Under the pieces are notes generated by a model. That model worked only from the letters and a program-made list of their open reading frames with translations, was not told the origin of the DNA and ran no database searches. Below are positions 3,001 through 32,174 of a DNA stretch of 32,174 bases, piece after piece. Each line of letters opens with the position of its first letter. The stretch's first letter is position 1. The stretch spans positions 1 through 32,174 of the IMG/VR virus record IMGVR_UViG_3300024324_000050; one strand, 5' to 3'. The position numbers and the translations under genes are program-made. This DNA is from a virus.

Positions 3001-4905
3001 CAAATTTGCACTTTGAGGTGATACAGGTGTTAGCTCATTATCATTAAATGACCACGCTTCTCCATTGCTATCTTGATACTCGCCATTACCTAGGCTAATG
3101 TACTGCTCGCCCGTTTCATCTTCGTGCGTTGGTACTACAGCATCCTTAGCAGTAGTTGGCTCCACAGGGACGCTTCTATCGCCATCCATAGTGGGTGAAG
3201 CATTACTTTGTGGTATAGCGTTGCTGCTCACTACATCAGTGGTTATTTCAGGGGCTTCGGGGTTTAAGGCTTTCTCAAGCGCAGATTTCATCTGATCGTT
3301 AGAGATAATGCCGGATTGACCGTCATTAATATCGGCGAATCGTTTAATCTCAAAACCCAGGTTATCAACGAAGGCTTGCTTCTTGTCCGCGTTAAGACGG
3401 TTTTTAATGAGGAATTTGCGTAACTTTTGGCGTTGACGTTTAAGCTCTTTCGAGGTTAGTGCCGTACCGTCTTTATGGGATTGCTCGAATTGATTGCGCT
3501 CTATCTGCTCAATAGTCAGCCGATCTTCAAAGCTCTTATCGATTTGCGCTTCTTTATCCGGTGAGTTGCGTATTTCATTGAAAGCTGCATCTATGTCAGT
3601 CTTTCGACCTTCATCAATGACATCCTTAAACTCAGGCGTAGTCCATACGTTATCAGGTGCTTGTGTTTCAGGATTATAAGCGTTGGGGTTTTCTGTGCGG
3701 GAATCGATAAAGGATTGTAAGTCTTGACCATCGACTTGACGGTTAGCGATCAATCTCTCTGCAACAGGCTTATATTCTGCGGTAGGTGTTTCCCAGTCTA
3801 GCGAATCTTTGAAGTTATTGATTGCCTCATCGACTGTGCTGGCGTTGGTCACTGTTTCGGCTGCGTCTTCATTGCTTTCGCTTTTAGCCGCCCCCAATGC
3901 TCCACCTAGCCCAAAGCCTATCACAGCTCCAGTTGCGCCAGACCCTACTGCACCTTCGTAAATATCGCTATCTATATCGTATCGCTGTGCGACTATATTT
4001 GTTGCGACTTCTTGACCAAAGCCCTCAGCAAACTCTTGCGCCCCCTCAGTAATACCACCCTCTAAAGCTCTAAGCCCTCGGCTAGCGCCGCTAGATGCAA
4101 TTTTACCTAGCAATGGATTTGCAGCACCCATTGATACAGCCCCAATGCCTGCACCCATATTGAATGCTTCAGCAGACCGTGCTTCTGCATAAGTGTCTTT
4201 AGCTAAATTAAAGGCAGTGGCCTGCTCTAGCCCTTCTCTTCTATTCGTCTTATATAGTTCAACAAAATCAGGGTCTTGAAGCAGCATCTCTACCGGAGCC
4301 TTCATTACCTCATCTCTTGCTTGCTTGGCAGTTGAACCACCAATCATTGCCCCACCAGCAGTACCTTGACCCAGCACCTGGTTTCTAAGGGTTTGAGATT
4401 TAGATAACTTATTAACTATCTTTCCAGAACGATCAAGGACTTTAGCGCCTTTGCTTATCTTATCAAGACCTCTAGTCAATGCCATACCAGGAAGGAATGA
4501 AGGAGCAAGTGAGCCAACCCCTTGCGCCATAAGTAACCCGCCGCCTCTAAAGCTGCTACCTTCTTTTAATGATAGGTCATCATTGAACCCAGTATTCTGA
4601 ATCGCCTGGATACTTTCATCCGTCATCGTTTCGTACTGAGCATCGGCCTGTTCACCCAGCCAATCAGACGCAAAGTTATCATTACCGAGCGTAACGCCTC
4701 GCGCTATATCAGCAGCACCGGTATAAACGCCAGACTGAACGGCGTCAACCAGGTCTCCCGAATAGCTTTTGTTTTTATTTGAGTCTTGCGGCTCAAACTC
4801 TTCAACTTCTTCAGCTTCTTCAGTAATGAAATGACCGAAGATTCCAATTAATTCTTCATCAGATAATGTAGGGTACTGCGCTCTATAGCTCGATAACGAT
4901 GCCAT
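1..4905 (-). CDS. Giant polyvalent virion protein with LPD1-like/zincin region (partial, C-terminus outside window)
   Basis: The frame is open from ATG at 4905 (AAAGGA six bases upstream) to the window edge, giving 1635 residues with no stop. The N-terminal third has Ala/Gly-rich hydrophobic stretches, followed by a long acidic, Thr/Gln/Glu-rich linker (about residues 600-850). Two segments near residues 1180-1300 resemble the small beta-rich modules of phage polyvalent proteins. Around 1337-1347 is RGVQFGNYVEG, followed by a conserved block and HEFFHGLDNYFG at about 1422-1433, an HExxH zinc-metallopeptidase signature. I recall this arrangement from LPD1-type polyvalent proteins, which are thought to be ejected with the DNA and to act in the newly infected cell. 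It is last in the virion cluster, where podophages keep their internal or ejection proteins. The assignment is by motif only; protease activity is inferred. Confidence 0.85.
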   Translation of the reverse strand, partial: MASLSSYRAQYPTLSDEELIGIFGHFITEEAEEVEEFEPQDSNKNKSYSGDLVDAVQSGVYTGAADIARGVTLGNDNFASDWLGEQADAQYETMTDESIQAIQNTGFNDDLSLKEGSSFRGGGLLMAQGVGSLAPSFLPGMALTRGLDKISKGAKVLDRSGKIVNKLSKSQTLRNQVLGQGTAGGAMIGGSTAKQARDEVMKAPVEMLLQDPDFVELYKTNRREGLEQATAFNLAKDTYAEARSAEAFNMGAGIGAVSMGAANPLLGKIASSGASRGLRALEGGITEGAQEFAEGFGQEVATNIVAQRYDIDSDIYEGAVGSGATGAVIGFGLGGALGAAKSESNEDAAETVTNASTVDEAINNFKDSLDWETPTAEYKPVAERLIANRQVDGQDLQSFIDSRTENPNAYNPETQAPDNVWTTPEFKDVIDEGRKTDIDAAFNEIRNSPDKEAQIDKSFEDRLTIEQIERNQFEQSHKDGTALTSKELKRQRQKLRKFLIKNRLNADKKQAFVDNLGFEIKRFADINDGQSGIISNDQMKSALEKALNPEAPEITTDVVSSNAIPQSNASPTMDGDRSVPVEPTTAKDAVVPTHEDETGEQYISLGNGEYQDSNGEAWSFNDNELTPVSPQSANLPLETVAQTETLNPEETIQNEQTETQSQETSAKTQPGEQIDDASTQIEANTTSTATVPTGEQETTSVPTQQEEVGQAIARVQAHIEKYANKTAPTSADSEFNKDVKAVTDALDSNTGTPNDGYYFSTKVNSQYDQQEGVQRAVDKLLSGKSPELKATEATHIEDGEIERVTPEVVNESLSTAANNRPDKSKAEMKDWLIDAIDKTVIRLESTADHPPMSEYERKSGYTISGALKDADMKQKHEWDVDAAKLTASKVGYKTFDVPGDGTFKVLNTREHLTRFKKKVLASSGFKETRAKAKTAKPSTKQADAKQLITQYLNEAGKKGVISDGKKFPIKNSVRLEAYGMAVQIANNSDLSDADIKALFEGKQSDIAGNKELLRYEDGYSTEETKTEAPEQEVKSEPVAKESPQQNQDKLKDFGEVLDGAKKHTYSFTKALDEDIDVKEVPLSKSIPLPNYEKMISDGVDPVLVATIAQLRAEIKPRKPKRGASRWVDSVNSARNKIKGLMKGLLQPEDIYKSALGDGYYPIAQLAADILPSQIKDLAKFTLDKSFFSLYEGEENVTKWGVEKSGERNANASFGFGSNSTYFDTKQEALDYIKSNVSDTNTKTGKAQTKFDMWSERGKKGVFLGKKVASRKYIELKRFDTQKEATAYRDSHYDELIELLAKKKKVRAIRRIDNNPRVGTDYRDGKDVTPELFQETFGFRGVQFGNYVEGPRRQQDLNNAYDGLLDLADVLGIPPEALSLNGTLGLAFGARGSGGKNPAAAHYESGGININLTKLNGKGSLAHEFFHGLDNYFGTMDEGDSFLSEGKRDKRKVVQKDGIPTMVETVDADFKVRKEVYDAWKGLYKSIKNETKIIERSESLDKARGKDYWSTVREMTARSFERYVIDKLASKGFESDYLANIVSEEAHDAENKILGDNQAYPYPLNDEMEAVNNAYDNLFKTLKTKKTDKGTALYSKSNKPQAKSTVAQIKALLPRRVQNMVDAGKLKVVQSVDNIS

Positions 4906-9022: not shown

Positions 9023-12000
9023 TTAGTTTTTTTCCATCTTTCCTGTGTCAGGGTTAATACCGTATTCGCTCCAGTCCATAGCAGCAGTGGCATAGGCCAT
9101 TGCGGGTTCACGGCCCGAAGCAATAATGCGGTCATAGTTTTGTAAATCACCACCTGCATCTATGACTCGCTGTCGATATGAGTCAATATCACCCTGGGCA
9201 GGGGCAGCAACCGAATCACTAGCAATCAACCCTTGCATCTCATCACCAGCATAGCTATCCATAAACTCAACATCATTGTCATAATCATAGTCAGCCTGAG
9301 CGTGTGCAGAAGCTTTATCTTCATCACTCATGTCGCTGCTGTCTATCTCACCCTTAAGCCTTTCGTACTCAGGATTACGCTCATCAAGCAATAAGCCCGC
9401 AAACTCCTGGCCACTCCATACGGTGTCAAATACCCCCAATGCTGCGCTAAGTCCCTCCATTTCCATGTTATTATAGAAATCTTTAGTTTTTTGATCGAAG
9501 TCAGGATTATTGTTATTGGCATTTATCCTAGCTGCGGTACTCTCCATAAAACTTGTCGCCGCTTGAGATTTATTTAGCAGATTCTCATGGTCGTTGGTGA
9601 GTTGTTTTAGCTGTAGACTGACATTCGCATTAAACTTATATTCATCAATCTTTGCATTTAACTCGTCTCTGTTAAACGCTTGAGTGGTATCAAACTGGGA
9701 TTGCTCCTGATTTAACGTGGAATCAAACTGATACCCCTCCTCATCTAATCCCCTATCTCTATAATCACTATCAGTATCATACCTGTATTGATCCTCAGAA
9801 AAGTCCCTTTCATTAAAGCTGCTGCTAGTATCAAACTGGAATTGACCTTCAGCAAAGTCCCTATCATTTTGATAGCTGCCAGTATCAAACTGATGTTGCT
9901 CTTCAGCAAATTTCCGATTCTTGTAATCGGTTTCAGTCTCAAACTCATACCGGTCATTAAACAGCGTTTCATCTTTGTATAGATTATCAATATAATCTCG
10001 ATCAGAGTAGAAATCAAGCTCAGACCCCTGGAGGGTTGAGGCGTTCTGCGACCCCGCATTAAATTGATTATTTGTTGAGTCCAGCTCCGCTTGCGCCATA
10101 CTAAACTGATTGCTCATGTCCGCATTATAGCTTGCTGCCTTGCCGTACATTTCAGCGTCAGGTCTTGCAATATCCAGCGCAGTATCGAACATCGCCGCTT
10201 GCCCAGCACTTGATGCCATCGTACTATTCAGCATGCCTCTTGAGTTAGCCGCATTAGATGCTTGCCGTCTTGATGCCTCCATTAACGGATTGCCTTCATC
10301 AACCAAGCCTTGCACCTGACCTTGAACAGTCTGATTGCCTGTCACGTCCCAGTTTTTAACCGGTGCTAAATCAACATCAGCCGCTCGCTCGACAGCAGAG
10401 CTATAGTCCTTATCTCTAGTCTGAAGCATAGCAGAACTTCTGTCGTTAGCACGGCTATCGAAATCAGGATTATACCCTGTAGGAGCGCCCTTTAAAGCTC
10501 CTGTAGGGATTCCAGTGGATACTGACCCTTTAGCGGGAGTAGGTGAAAAAGTGGCATTCGCTTTTGTGGGATACCCAGTGGATTTTTGAGTGGCTCTTCC
10601 AGGCTCACCCACTCCAATGGGGACTCCAATCATATCATTACCGAGCGTTTTGGCTGGTCCTTGAGCGGGTGTAGGTGAATAACCATGTCGATCCTGATAT
10701 ACAGGGGGTAATGGCTCTGGAGGAGCCGGTCCTCGAGCAGGCGTAGGTGAATAACCAGTCGATCCAGTAAACGTTGACCCCATAGGTCTAGGGTCAGCTT
10801 TAATGGGTCCTTGTCTCGGTGTAGGTGAATAACCAGTCGATCCAGTAAACGTTGACCCCATAGGTCTAGGGTCAGCTTTAATGGGTCCTGGTCCCTGAGC
10901 AGGCGTAGGTGAATAACCATGTCGATCCTGATATACAGGTGGTAATGGCTCTGGAGGAGCCGGTCCTCGAGCAGGTCTAGCGGAAGCACGGGTCGGTTTA
11001 ATGAGTCCGCTTTCTGTTCTTTGCGGTCTGTTGAAATCGTTTGCTGTTCTTTGAGGTCTGGGTCTAGCGGAAGCGCGGGTCGGTCTGTTGAAATTATTTC
11101 CTGCCCCTTGAGAGCCACCTGCTGAACCACCTTGAGAACCACCTTGAGAGCCACCTGCTGAACCACCTGCTGGACCACCTTGAGAACCACCGGAACCTCC
11201 TAAGTGTCCAGCCGCTCCAGGTCTAGCTGTCGTACTAAAATACTCTTTAACCTGCTCGTTTGAATAGCCTGTCGCCTGAGCTAGAACGTCATCAGAAATA
11301 TTTCTGTCCCAGGCAAAAGCAGAGATTGCTTCAGGATTATCCTTATTATCTTCCACAAAGCCTCTAATTTGACTATGTGAATACATCGGAGCATCGTCTA
11401 AGTAAGATTTAATCTGCTCATCTGAATAGCCGGTTGCCTCTTTTAGACGGTCTCTAGTCACCCCGTTTGCTATGACGGCGTTCCTGATGGCTCCAGGATC
11501 ATTCATATTCTCGGTAATAAAGTCTTTAATTTGGCTGTTTGATAGAGTGCCGTTGTATTTCTGAGGCTTCTTCAGGCTATCATAATTAACTGGGTTGTCA
11601 AAACCATGCTCCAGACCTGCCAATAGACCACGATCCATGTTTTTCGGGAAAGAAAACTCTTTTACAGAAGGGCTTTCAGTTTCTGGAGGGCGATTCCTGA
11701 CAGGACTGAAATAATTATTAATCTCATCGTTTGAATAGCCTGTTGCTGCGGCTAGTTGGTCATCACTGATTCCGTTTTCTTTGGCAGCGGCTGCGATTAC
11801 TTCAGGATTGTTGATATTCGCGGCAACAAACTCTTTAATTTGACTATCTGAATAGGCAACCGGACTGGCAAACTCTTCTATGCCTGTGCGAGGGTTAATC
11901 ATGCCGCGACCCACTTGATATTGGCCAGGATTACCACCCATACCTTGAATGCTTGAAGCAACGCCATTAACTAAATCGGGACGCATCGCTACCACTTCGC

Positions 12001-12142
12001 GAGGGATCACCATCTCACCCTCTGAAACGTGCGCCATACGGGTGTCCCCATTACGACCTTGACTTGCTAACATGCCCATTCTGTTTTGCGGGGACCTCGA
12101 CGCTTTTTTTTGCGCCCACCCAGCATAGTCTGTCGCTGCCAT
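9023..12142 (-). CDS. Large repeat-rich internal virion protein, 1039 aa
   Basis: Five zones are visible. Residues 25-65 carry the phage motif GDTRMAHVSEGEMVIPREV. Residues 97-145, 199-247 and 254-302 are three copies of a helical repeat with the pattern SxIxxF, NP, AxxxxIS, ATGYSxxQIxxYF. Residues 312-345 are Gly/Ser/Gln-rich. Residues 350-510 are Pro-rich with long duplicated blocks. Residues about 707-834 hold an 18-residue-type repeat built on RxFAExQxQFDT, probably a long helix. AAGGAG precedes the ATG at 12142. The long helical and disordered design is typical of podophage ejection-type proteins; a specific role is not shown. Confidence 0.8.
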   Translation of the reverse strand: MAATDYAGWAQKKASRSPQNRMGMLASQGRNGDTRMAHVSEGEMVIPREVVAMRPDLVNGVASSIQGMGGNPGQYQVGRGMINPRTGIEEFASPVAYSDSQIKEFVAANINNPEVIAAAAKENGISDDQLAAATGYSNDEINNYFSPVRNRPPETESPSVKEFSFPKNMDRGLLAGLEHGFDNPVNYDSLKKPQKYNGTLSNSQIKDFITENMNDPGAIRNAVIANGVTRDRLKEATGYSDEQIKSYLDDAPMYSHSQIRGFVEDNKDNPEAISAFAWDRNISDDVLAQATGYSNEQVKEYFSTTARPGAAGHLGGSGGSQGGPAGGSAGGSQGGSQGGSAGGSQGAGNNFNRPTRASARPRPQRTANDFNRPQRTESGLIKPTRASARPARGPAPPEPLPPVYQDRHGYSPTPAQGPGPIKADPRPMGSTFTGSTGYSPTPRQGPIKADPRPMGSTFTGSTGYSPTPARGPAPPEPLPPVYQDRHGYSPTPAQGPAKTLGNDMIGVPIGVGEPGRATQKSTGYPTKANATFSPTPAKGSVSTGIPTGALKGAPTGYNPDFDSRANDRSSAMLQTRDKDYSSAVERAADVDLAPVKNWDVTGNQTVQGQVQGLVDEGNPLMEASRRQASNAANSRGMLNSTMASSAGQAAMFDTALDIARPDAEMYGKAASYNADMSNQFSMAQAELDSTNNQFNAGSQNASTLQGSELDFYSDRDYIDNLYKDETLFNDRYEFETETDYKNRKFAEEQHQFDTGSYQNDRDFAEGQFQFDTSSSFNERDFSEDQYRYDTDSDYRDRGLDEEGYQFDSTLNQEQSQFDTTQAFNRDELNAKIDEYKFNANVSLQLKQLTNDHENLLNKSQAATSFMESTAARINANNNNPDFDQKTKDFYNNMEMEGLSAALGVFDTVWSGQEFAGLLLDERNPEYERLKGEIDSSDMSDEDKASAHAQADYDYDNDVEFMDSYAGDEMQGLIASDSVAAPAQGDIDSYRQRVIDAGGDLQNYDRIIASGREPAMAYATAAMDWSEYGINPDTGKMEKN
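10671..10975. repeat. Nested A-B-B-A DNA duplications inside the 1039-aa gene
   Basis: A roughly 70-bp block starting GTAGGTGAATAACCATGTCG occurs at 10671 and again at 10905, nearly identical. Between them a second roughly 75-bp block starting GTAGGTGAATAACCAGTCG occurs at 10743 and 10821. All preserve the reading frame and encode GYSPTPA and ADPRPMGSTFTGST repeats. The near identity at DNA level indicates recent duplication or conversion. Confidence 0.9.
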
Positions 12143-30752: not shown

Positions 30753-31195
30753 GCTGTTACTCCTAAGTTAAAGTGTCTGTTTTTAATGTCATTTTCCTGC
30801 ATTATCGCTCGGACTGTTTTATCATTCAGTGGCGGATGGTCTCCCACAGGGGTGTTAGTGGATAACCTCGCCGATCTTTTAAGCTTTCTCATCGCAGACT
30901 TCAGAAACCGATCACACTGACTCGCATTTTCAGACGGCAATAACACGCGATAATCGCCCTTAAATCCAGACAAGTACTTACCCTCTTCGAGTAAAGTGCT
31001 TCTACAATATTCAATGGCGTTTAACTCAAAAAGAGCCACCCTGCTAAAGTCGTCCCGAGTACCCACAATAGGGTATTCGATTTCCAGAAACTTTCTCACT
31101 TCACTGCCCTTGAAGACAGCGCCAAACTCAAGCGACCCTTGCGAGTTCAAGTATCCGAATAAGTCCTCGCCTCTGTTCTTTGTGTATTTATCCAT
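30749..31195 (-). CDS. Early hypothetical protein, 148 aa
   Basis: I do not recognise the family. The protein has a mixed sequence with a helical C-terminal half containing basic stretches (RFLKSAMRKLKRSARLS) and ending with a phage-like TVRAIMQENDIKN. It is coupled to both neighbours: its start lies in the end of the 199-aa gene and its stop overlaps the SSB start. A DNA-metabolism role alongside SSB and RusA is plausible. Confidence 0.7.
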   Translation of the reverse strand: MDKYTKNRGEDLFGYLNSQGSLEFGAVFKGSEVRKFLEIEYPIVGTRDDFSRVALFELNAIEYCRSTLLEEGKYLSGFKGDYRVLLPSENASQCDRFLKSAMRKLKRSARLSTNTPVGDHPPLNDKTVRAIMQENDIKNRHFNLGVTA

Positions 31196-31787
31196 GAGTA
31201 ATCACCGCTGTACCTCTGCCGAATGTCGGTCTGAAATCACCGAAGCCACCGCGAATCGCTGCGAACTCTATAATCCTGGTTAAATCTTGTTTATCCATCA
31301 GACTGGCATCGAATTCTAAATCGAAAGAAAATTCCCATTCGTGAAAAATAGGCATCGTTTTCGCAATACGCACCTGGCCTTGCGGTAATATCATCTTATG
31401 TCTAAAGAAATCATTACCGACAATATCATCGGGTGATTTTACCTGGGCTGAATTCTTGTACTTGAGAGAGGTTTTATCCTGAATCGGGAAGACTGACGCT
31501 CTTATGTCAGCTTTCGGTATTTTCGCAACTTTATTAGACACCTTGCAGATTGCCGCCATTATCCAGCGGGCAGGAATATAGACTCCTAATTCGTCATCCC
31601 AATAAAGAGCGCTCTGAACTTCTAAATCCGCTAACTCTAGGTAATCCTCATCAGTTCTACGAGTTTTCTTCGCATTAATTTCAGACATTCTCCGCGAGAA
31701 CTTATTGAACCGGTCAACCGTTTGTGGGTTTTTGATGATAAGCGGTGATACCCCTGTGATCTGGATGTTCGCTGTTTTTATAGCCAT
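31188..31787 (-). CDS. Early phage protein with RAMP-like features, 199 aa
   Basis: The protein starts MAIKTANIQITGVSPLIIKN, has RRTDEDYLELADLEVQSALY and a GVYIPARWIMAA segment, and ends RGGFGDFRPTFGRGT. I recall this pattern from a widespread uncharacterised phage family encoded near SSB genes. The glycine-rich GGFGDFRP loop near residues 180-187 resembles the loop of RAMP/ferredoxin-like nucleic-acid proteins, an inference only. I chose ATG at 31787 (GAGAG upstream) over a TTG nine codons earlier. It is the first gene after the repeat array. Confidence 0.75.
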   Translation of the reverse strand: MAIKTANIQITGVSPLIIKNPQTVDRFNKFSRRMSEINAKKTRRTDEDYLELADLEVQSALYWDDELGVYIPARWIMAAICKVSNKVAKIPKADIRASVFPIQDKTSLKYKNSAQVKSPDDIVGNDFFRHKMILPQGQVRIAKTMPIFHEWEFSFDLEFDASLMDKQDLTRIIEFAAIRGGFGDFRPTFGRGTAVITHG

Positions 31788-31850
31788 TTTTTGGTCTCTC
31801 AAGATTAAATTCAACCTGGATTTAGGTTGGAGTTTGGGTCAAATATTGCC
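31788..31850 (-). promoter_or_regulatory. Leader of the early leftward operon with small hairpin
   Basis: The 63 bases between the first early gene and the repeat array contain a perfect 6-bp stem CAACCT/AGGTTG (31812-31829) and a TTGACC element on the minus strand. No well-spaced -10 was found, so the promoter is probably within or beyond the repeats. Confidence 0.35.
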
Positions 31851-32174
31851 CGCTAAGCTCACTCAAGGAATAAGCTTAACGCGTGTATTTGCAATCCGCT
31901 GCCCTGCCATGCACTGCTCTGCTATGCAATGCTCTGCACTACAGTTGAATCTAAAAATAGACTCGCTAAACTCACTCGAAGAATGAATTTAACGCGTATA
32001 TTTGCAATCCGCTGCACTGCTATGCGATGCACTGCAATGCACTACATTTGAATCTAAAAATAGACTCGCTAAACTCACTCGAAAATAAGTTTAACGCGTG
32101 TATTTGCTTTGTCCTGCACTGCATATATCTGAATCTAAATAGACTCGCTAAGCTTACTCAAGGAATAAGCTTAA
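31851..32174. repeat. Degenerate tandem repeat array with conserved hairpin and inner 5-bp tract
   Basis: Units start with CGCTAA at 31851, 31964, 32067 and 32146 (113, 103, 79 and at least 29 bp; the array runs off the window). Each full unit has an inverted repeat (CGCTAARCT ... AGYTTAACG, about 13-base loop), ACGCGT, TATTTGC, a tract of 5-bp units CNMTG (8, 6 and 2 copies), then TGAATCTAAA and AGACT before the next unit. No convincing gene lies here. The array could be an origin, a partition- or packaging-type site, or a structured leader RNA. Confidence 0.9.

Follow-up and report, generated by a model that had tools for sequence, protein, structure and literature searches.

A very probable VIPR guide-RNA array of GCA/NN pentamers beside a vipr gene in an uncultured tailed phage

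Introduction

VIPR is a CRISPR-like system by which phages recognise DNA under the guidance of RNA, posted as a preprint in April 2026 (PMC13142463; bioRxiv 2026.04.26.720920). It combines a phage RAMP protein, Vipr, with RNAs (vrRNAs) that carry 9-16 pentamers, each made of a fixed triplet and two variable bases (NN), followed by a constant structured 3' tail (PMC13142463). The NN bases pair with double-stranded DNA, one base being skipped per step, and the complex represses transcription, its targets being competing phages and satellites (PMC13142463). For all VIPR types, the preprint gives the pentamer as GGY/NN "or a related consensus (fig. S17)" (PMC13142463).

Here we analyse a repeat array at one end of a viral stretch of 32,174 nucleotides (hereafter the window; IMG/VR record IMGVR_UViG_3300024324_000050). 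An earlier note on this DNA proposed that the repeats are a structured leader, an RNA decoy or an origin-linked transcript, and knew of no described element with this layout. The latter statement is out of date since VIPR was posted. As for the roles, the neighbouring Vipr protein, its fold, the pentamer code and the recurrence of the layout in dozens of phages point instead to VIPR guide RNAs. We conclude that the repeats are very probably the vipr-proximal, cut-off part of a vrRNA array of a GCA type in an uncultured tailed phage.

Results

Pentamer tracts alternate with hairpin tails at the end of the window

The array end of the window (the last 324 bases, 31851-32174) comprises three hairpin tails in full and a fourth truncated by the contig end, in line with the earlier count of at least three full units and one partial unit sharing a hairpin, and pentamer runs sit between the tails (Table 1). 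Read on the minus strand, each unit consists of a run of GCA-NN pentamers, a first hairpin (HP1) of 11 bp, where 9 bp had been described, and a directly adjoining second hairpin (HP2) of 6-7 bp. The repeats are not random: the self-match of the array at lag 5 is 0.411, against 0.260 (sd 0.025) in 1,000 dinucleotide shuffles, none of which scored as high. The 5-nt period is thus far above chance, and nowhere else in the window is the lag-5 signal as strong as in the array. No sigma-70-like promoter was found near it. Elsewhere in the window, tandem repeats (12/36 and ~78 bp units) occur at 11106-11191 and 10737-10928, inside a 1039-aa ORF (9023-12142).

At a minimum, the window contig is truncated within the array and within the gene at its left end. 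The rightward extension that the earlier note had called for is provided by a second IMG/VR contig (L002), which was found through a relative of the window's array-adjacent protein and extends ~1.1 kb past the vipr gene. It carries a complete array of five hairpin tails, with four guide tracts of 10-15 pentamers and one four-pentamer remnant; over both contigs, which come from one phage group, tracts have 8-15 pentamers, apart from the remnant of 4. Outside the repeats, the two DNAs are 98.5% identical over 4.8 kb. The remnant is the same in both, and the guides between it and vipr differ, with one in L002 and two in the window. Since the guides differ while their flanks are almost constant, the guides turn over, as expected of an arms race. 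Comparison of the window's DNA with phages gave short matches only, in unrelated genes.

All known units of the two contigs lie upstream of vipr. The array had been placed at the head of the early operon; it does adjoin the vipr-vap-ssb genes, just upstream of them, but it is not clearly the head, because L002 has further elements upstream of the array: a same-strand 75-aa ORF (122-349) and a 23-nt inverted repeat ending in a T run (434-510, in the region 405-515), which is 83% complementary (fold z -3.5). By eye, this inverted repeat has alternative, attenuator-like pairings with the sequence just before it.

Table 1. Features of the array and its adjoining genes in the window, and arrays recognised in two Vibrio phages
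Feature	Coordinates	Strand	Remarks
vap-like accessory gene, 148 aa	30749..31195	-	second gene of a two-gene operon with vipr
vipr, 199 aa, predicted RAMP-fold protein	31188..31787	-	ATG at 31787; also readable from TTG 31814
3' tail of the putative vrRNA nearest vipr	31836..31884	-	HP1 31852-31880, variant HP2 31836-31851; folding z -4.1, covariation
Guide tract W1	31888..31942	-	in-register pentamers (5'->3', minus strand): GTAGT GCAGA GCATT GCATA GCAGA GCAGT GCATG GCAGG GCAGC GGATT GCAAA
3' tail, second unit	31947..31997	-	HP1 31965-31993, HP2 31947-31964; folding z -5.6, covariation
Guide tract W2	32001..32045	-	in-register pentamers (5'->3', minus strand): GTAGT GCATT GCAGT GCATC GCATA GCAGT GCAGC GGATT GCAAA
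3' tail, third unit	32050..32099	-	HP1 32068-32095, HP2 32050-32067; folding z -4.7, covariation
Short four-pentamer tract	32103..32122	-	GCAGT GCAGG ACAAA GCAAA; identical in L002; probably a remnant unit
3' tail, fourth unit	32129..32174	-	cut by contig end; array goes on in L002
GCA/NN guide arrays, Vibrio phage phiHSIC	L003 4600-4905		unannotated
GCA/NN guide arrays, Vibrio phage 1.266.O	L004 3810-3960 and 4610-4790		unannotated

The tails covary as minus-strand RNA

We aligned nine units, from the window and the five of L002. As minus-strand RNA, 96.7% of the cells pair, and sliding the partners lowers pairing to 52% or less. Double changes occur in 11 cells, in 5 pairs, compared with 3.1 in shuffles (0/500 as high). 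The switch noted previously at position 7, from G-C in units 1 and 4 to A-U in units 2 and 3, was confirmed. It had also been remarked that stem mismatches are always C opposite A on the plus strand. This is true of every HP1 mismatch in the window, each becoming a G.U pair in minus-strand RNA, and over the nine units G.U pairs make up 32 of the 147 paired cells; on the plus strand they would be C.A mismatches. The five additional units of L002 could have broken the stem; HP1 is broken in one cell only (U.U). The covariation proposed in the earlier note thus withstands the refuting condition set there, on units that lay beyond its reach. The remaining unpaired cells arise because the unit nearest vipr has its HP2 replaced by a different sequence, which can itself fold into a bulged hairpin. 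Folding z-scores of single units range from -2.6 to -5.6. These comparisons support the view that the repeats fold as minus-strand RNA and that, as the earlier note proposed, the hairpins are under selection in a leftward transcript.

The same data bear on a DNA-level array, of protein-binding iterons or a replication origin. The iteron-like spacing and the nearby ssb gene would fit such an element, but the covariation involves G.U pairs on just one strand, which points to RNA. Moreover, among the relatives analysed below the triplet changes with the Vipr clade and the arrays adjoin vipr in genomes with different neighbours, and we regard this explanation as extremely unlikely.

Other searches with the tails returned little. 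No Rfam family was found in the window at gathering cut-offs, and two weak sub-threshold Rfam matches in L002 (1-1200) were judged to be chance. A check for tRNA mimicry found no tRNA in the window. Among viral contigs, one exact tail-hairpin pattern had no match, and the other retrieved L002 and two matches inside coding sequence (L006 and L007), which we attribute to chance.

The adjoining genes encode a Vipr homologue and a vap-like protein

The product of the ORF next to the array matches PDB 36pp ("SUSP1 Vipr protein") with an E-value of 1.7e-21 as a single sequence (phmmer), and of 3.5e-83 as a profile built with six phage relatives. It also matches PHROG 4652, of function unknown. An AlphaFold model based on 28 sequences from the window and viral contigs has a pLDDT of 91.9, and its best PDB matches in Foldseek are Csm3, type VII Cas7 and Cmr subunits (best E 1e-4). 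The C-terminal segment GFGDFRPTFGR is invariant or nearly so. By homology and modelled fold, this is a Vipr protein with a predicted RNA-binding RAMP fold, i.e., a single-RRM RAMP homologue with a G-loop.

The second gene is kept in this position in most loci of the GCA clade (see below) and corresponds to the vap gene expected beside vipr. Its product is related to gene 94 of the felixounavirus wV8 (hhalign E 4.6e-7), a member of PHROG 5926, which 9 of the 21 members of the window protein's family also match; in felixounaviruses, gene 94 occupies the vap position. Its predicted fold has no significant PDB match (best E 0.096), and the weak ones include winged-helix DNA-binding proteins. Regarding the features of type II, the vap-like gene is thus related to a felixounavirus one, and Vipr falls on a separate, fully supported branch.

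PADLOC gave no family match for either of the two array-adjacent proteins. A CRISPR array was rejected on this ground and because the segments between the tails are GCA/NN pentamers. An RNA-based anti-CRISPR or a decoy made of repeat mimics would be phage-encoded repeated hairpins, as these are. However, the partner protein is itself encoded by the phage and belongs to the family of the solved Vipr, the Rfam search of the window gave no family at gathering cut-offs, and the pentamer tracts have no place in such a model, which leaves it next to no chance. The locus features that the preprint names for VIPR are present, the two-hairpin tail with covariation being the structured 3' tail after the tract; the pentamers correspond to the related consensus only, as GCA/NN and not strict GGY. 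With GCA replacing GGY, the locus was therefore filed as VIPR.

The fixed triplet follows the Vipr phylogeny

Pentamer runs flank the Vipr homologues in nearly all surveyed loci, with 240 guides in all. The GCA loci have 80 tracts and 1020 pentamers, in which the triplet is conserved (G 95%, C 87%, A 92%) and the NN positions are variable, apart from some excess of A. Surveyed relatives whose Vipr is 43% or more identical to the window's use GCA/NN, including phiHSIC and Vibrio phage 1.266.O. One locus whose Vipr is 41% identical to the window's (L043) has three GAA/NN tracts at 3661-3966, with 40/40 pentamers perfect. The other surveyed loci use GGY/NN, including felixounaviruses and mycobacterial and Gordonia phages. 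Tracts are unusually long in L035 (3599-4090), with 21-29 GCA pentamers against the 9-16 reported. In Gordonia phage Trine and Mycobacterium phage LittleE (L008 3600-3880; L011 2128-2420 and 3629-3935), the tail stems contain GGTTCGA(G/C)TCC, which resembles a tRNA T-arm and is perhaps a processing signal. The GenBank repeat_region DR_4 of phage wV8 overlaps the tail regions of VIPR-type arrays (L009 2762-2819 and 4155-4212).

Arrays downstream of vipr are found in phiHSIC, Felix-type phages, L022, L026 and L035, and they bear on the possibility of a structured leader or attenuator, in which the hairpins would regulate leftward transcription into the vipr-vap-ssb genes. This would account for hairpins that fold on the transcribed strand, for an array just upstream of the operon and for the three HP1 hairpins of L002 that score as weak terminator-like sites. 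Yet it does not explain why the 5-nt register is strict, why the NN letters vary or why some arrays lie downstream, all of which a guide array accounts for, and we consider it very unlikely.

The triplet of these guide arrays follows the tree of 71 Vipr proteins, in which one branch separates the 31 GCA/GAA rows from all 40 GGY rows, with full SH-aLRT support in a tree made by a quick method, with no bootstrap. The 31 rows, about 30 marine and environmental relatives, include two MAG loci that were initially unlabelled (L092 and L093) and both show GCA tracts, and three rows with an absent or weak tract (L017, L018 and L019) that were labelled GCA by similarity; a few further rows of the tree were labelled by group, and not one by one from their own tract. 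Column 188, in the predicted G-loop, is T in 31/31 proteins of the GCA/GAA side and R in 39/39 of the GGY side. Other columns separating the GCA/GAA from the GGY side are 75 (W vs mostly N), 136 (Q vs mostly V), 143 (K vs mostly R) and 19 (N vs H); position 60 likewise separates the clades. Because all these changes lie on one branch, the columns are candidates for reading the triplet, not proof of it. Among 369 surveyed genomes of one class, the starting genome alone had a Vipr of the GCA clade, so cellular genomes seem to carry this branch only rarely.

Searches for the targets of the guides

The one-base-skip patterns of W1, W2 and guides 1 and 3 of L002 were scanned in the viral_contigs set. 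The scans with these four guides gave 10-13 matches, on the order expected by chance, and established no natural target. W1 is the sole guide of the four with a family of matches extending past the searched core; those of W2 and of the two L002 guides show no such extension. The W1 family is a gene that contains ENALDFYEVWGAL, occurs in five contigs and weakly matches families of phage single-strand-binding proteins. The guide aligns with it in frame, the skipped base being the wobble base, and up to 19/20 letters match. We estimate the probability of such an extension by chance at about 0.1-0.2, and do not claim this gene as the target of W1. Two guides of a related MAG, searched against 190 genomes, had three matches with one mismatch and one with two, approximately the level of the controls. 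When ~240 guides were compared with the fetched loci for mutual targeting, the one-base skip showed no clear excess over other skips.

Discussion

By analogy with the work on SUSP1 (PMC13142463), the locus could function as follows. The array would be transcribed leftward into RNAs of ~100 nt, each made of a GCA-NN tract and the two-hairpin 3' tail. Vipr subunits would assemble along the tract and grip the GCA triplets, leaving the NN dinucleotides free to pair, with one base skipped per step, with the double-stranded DNA of a competing phage, satellite or prophage. The bound complex would then repress transcription at the DNA target, presumably aided by the vap product.

The GCA/NN variant may be new, and may already fall under the "related consensus" named in the preprint (PMC13142463). 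A tentative reading, which we hold to be possible rather than probable, is that a deep marine and environmental branch of Vipr has GCA (GAA in one phage) in place of GGY, along with altered Vipr residues, among them T instead of R in the predicted G-loop, that the triplet is read by the protein and can evolve, and that the skip may follow another rule than in SUSP1. The clean split of GGY, GCA and GAA by Vipr branch is a natural experiment on triplet-reading residues, and makes it testable whether the one-base skip holds when the triplet changes. The analysis also extends VIPR to a branch of largely uncultured phages and to Vibrio phage genomes that have long been public, where its genes are annotated as hypothetical.

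Comparison with known systems

The VIPR of Escherichia phage SUSP1 (type II in the preprint; PMC13142463, PDB 36pp) resembles the window locus in its homologous, phage-encoded Vipr, in a related second gene (the comparison being made via its homologue in felixounavirus wV8), and in RNA units of ~100 nt with triplet/NN tracts and a constant structured 3' tail. The window differs in its GCA/NN core instead of GGY/NN, in a tail of two adjacent hairpins, in which we identified no pseudoknot, and in the position of its known units, and those of L002, upstream of vipr. Several Vipr positions also differ, e.g., T188 for R.

The closest named relatives of the locus are those of phiHSIC and 1.266.O, with 45% Vipr identity. 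Their VIPR proteins are hypothetical proteins in their records, and their VIPR loci were recognised in this analysis. They share with the window the GCA/NN tracts and, by eye, hairpins with a similar apical sequence. In contrast to the window, vipr and the next gene enclose all of the units in phiHSIC and part of them in 1.266.O, and the tail differs in its distal part.

Class 1 CRISPR-Cas systems, in which Cas7/Csm3 RAMPs work with crRNA, are comparable in the RAMP fold and in the arrayed units of a variable guide and a constant structured handle. Unlike theirs, the guide letters of the window are broken by a fixed triplet in every pentamer, and the array is phage-encoded, with no cas genes or spacer acquisition seen beside it.
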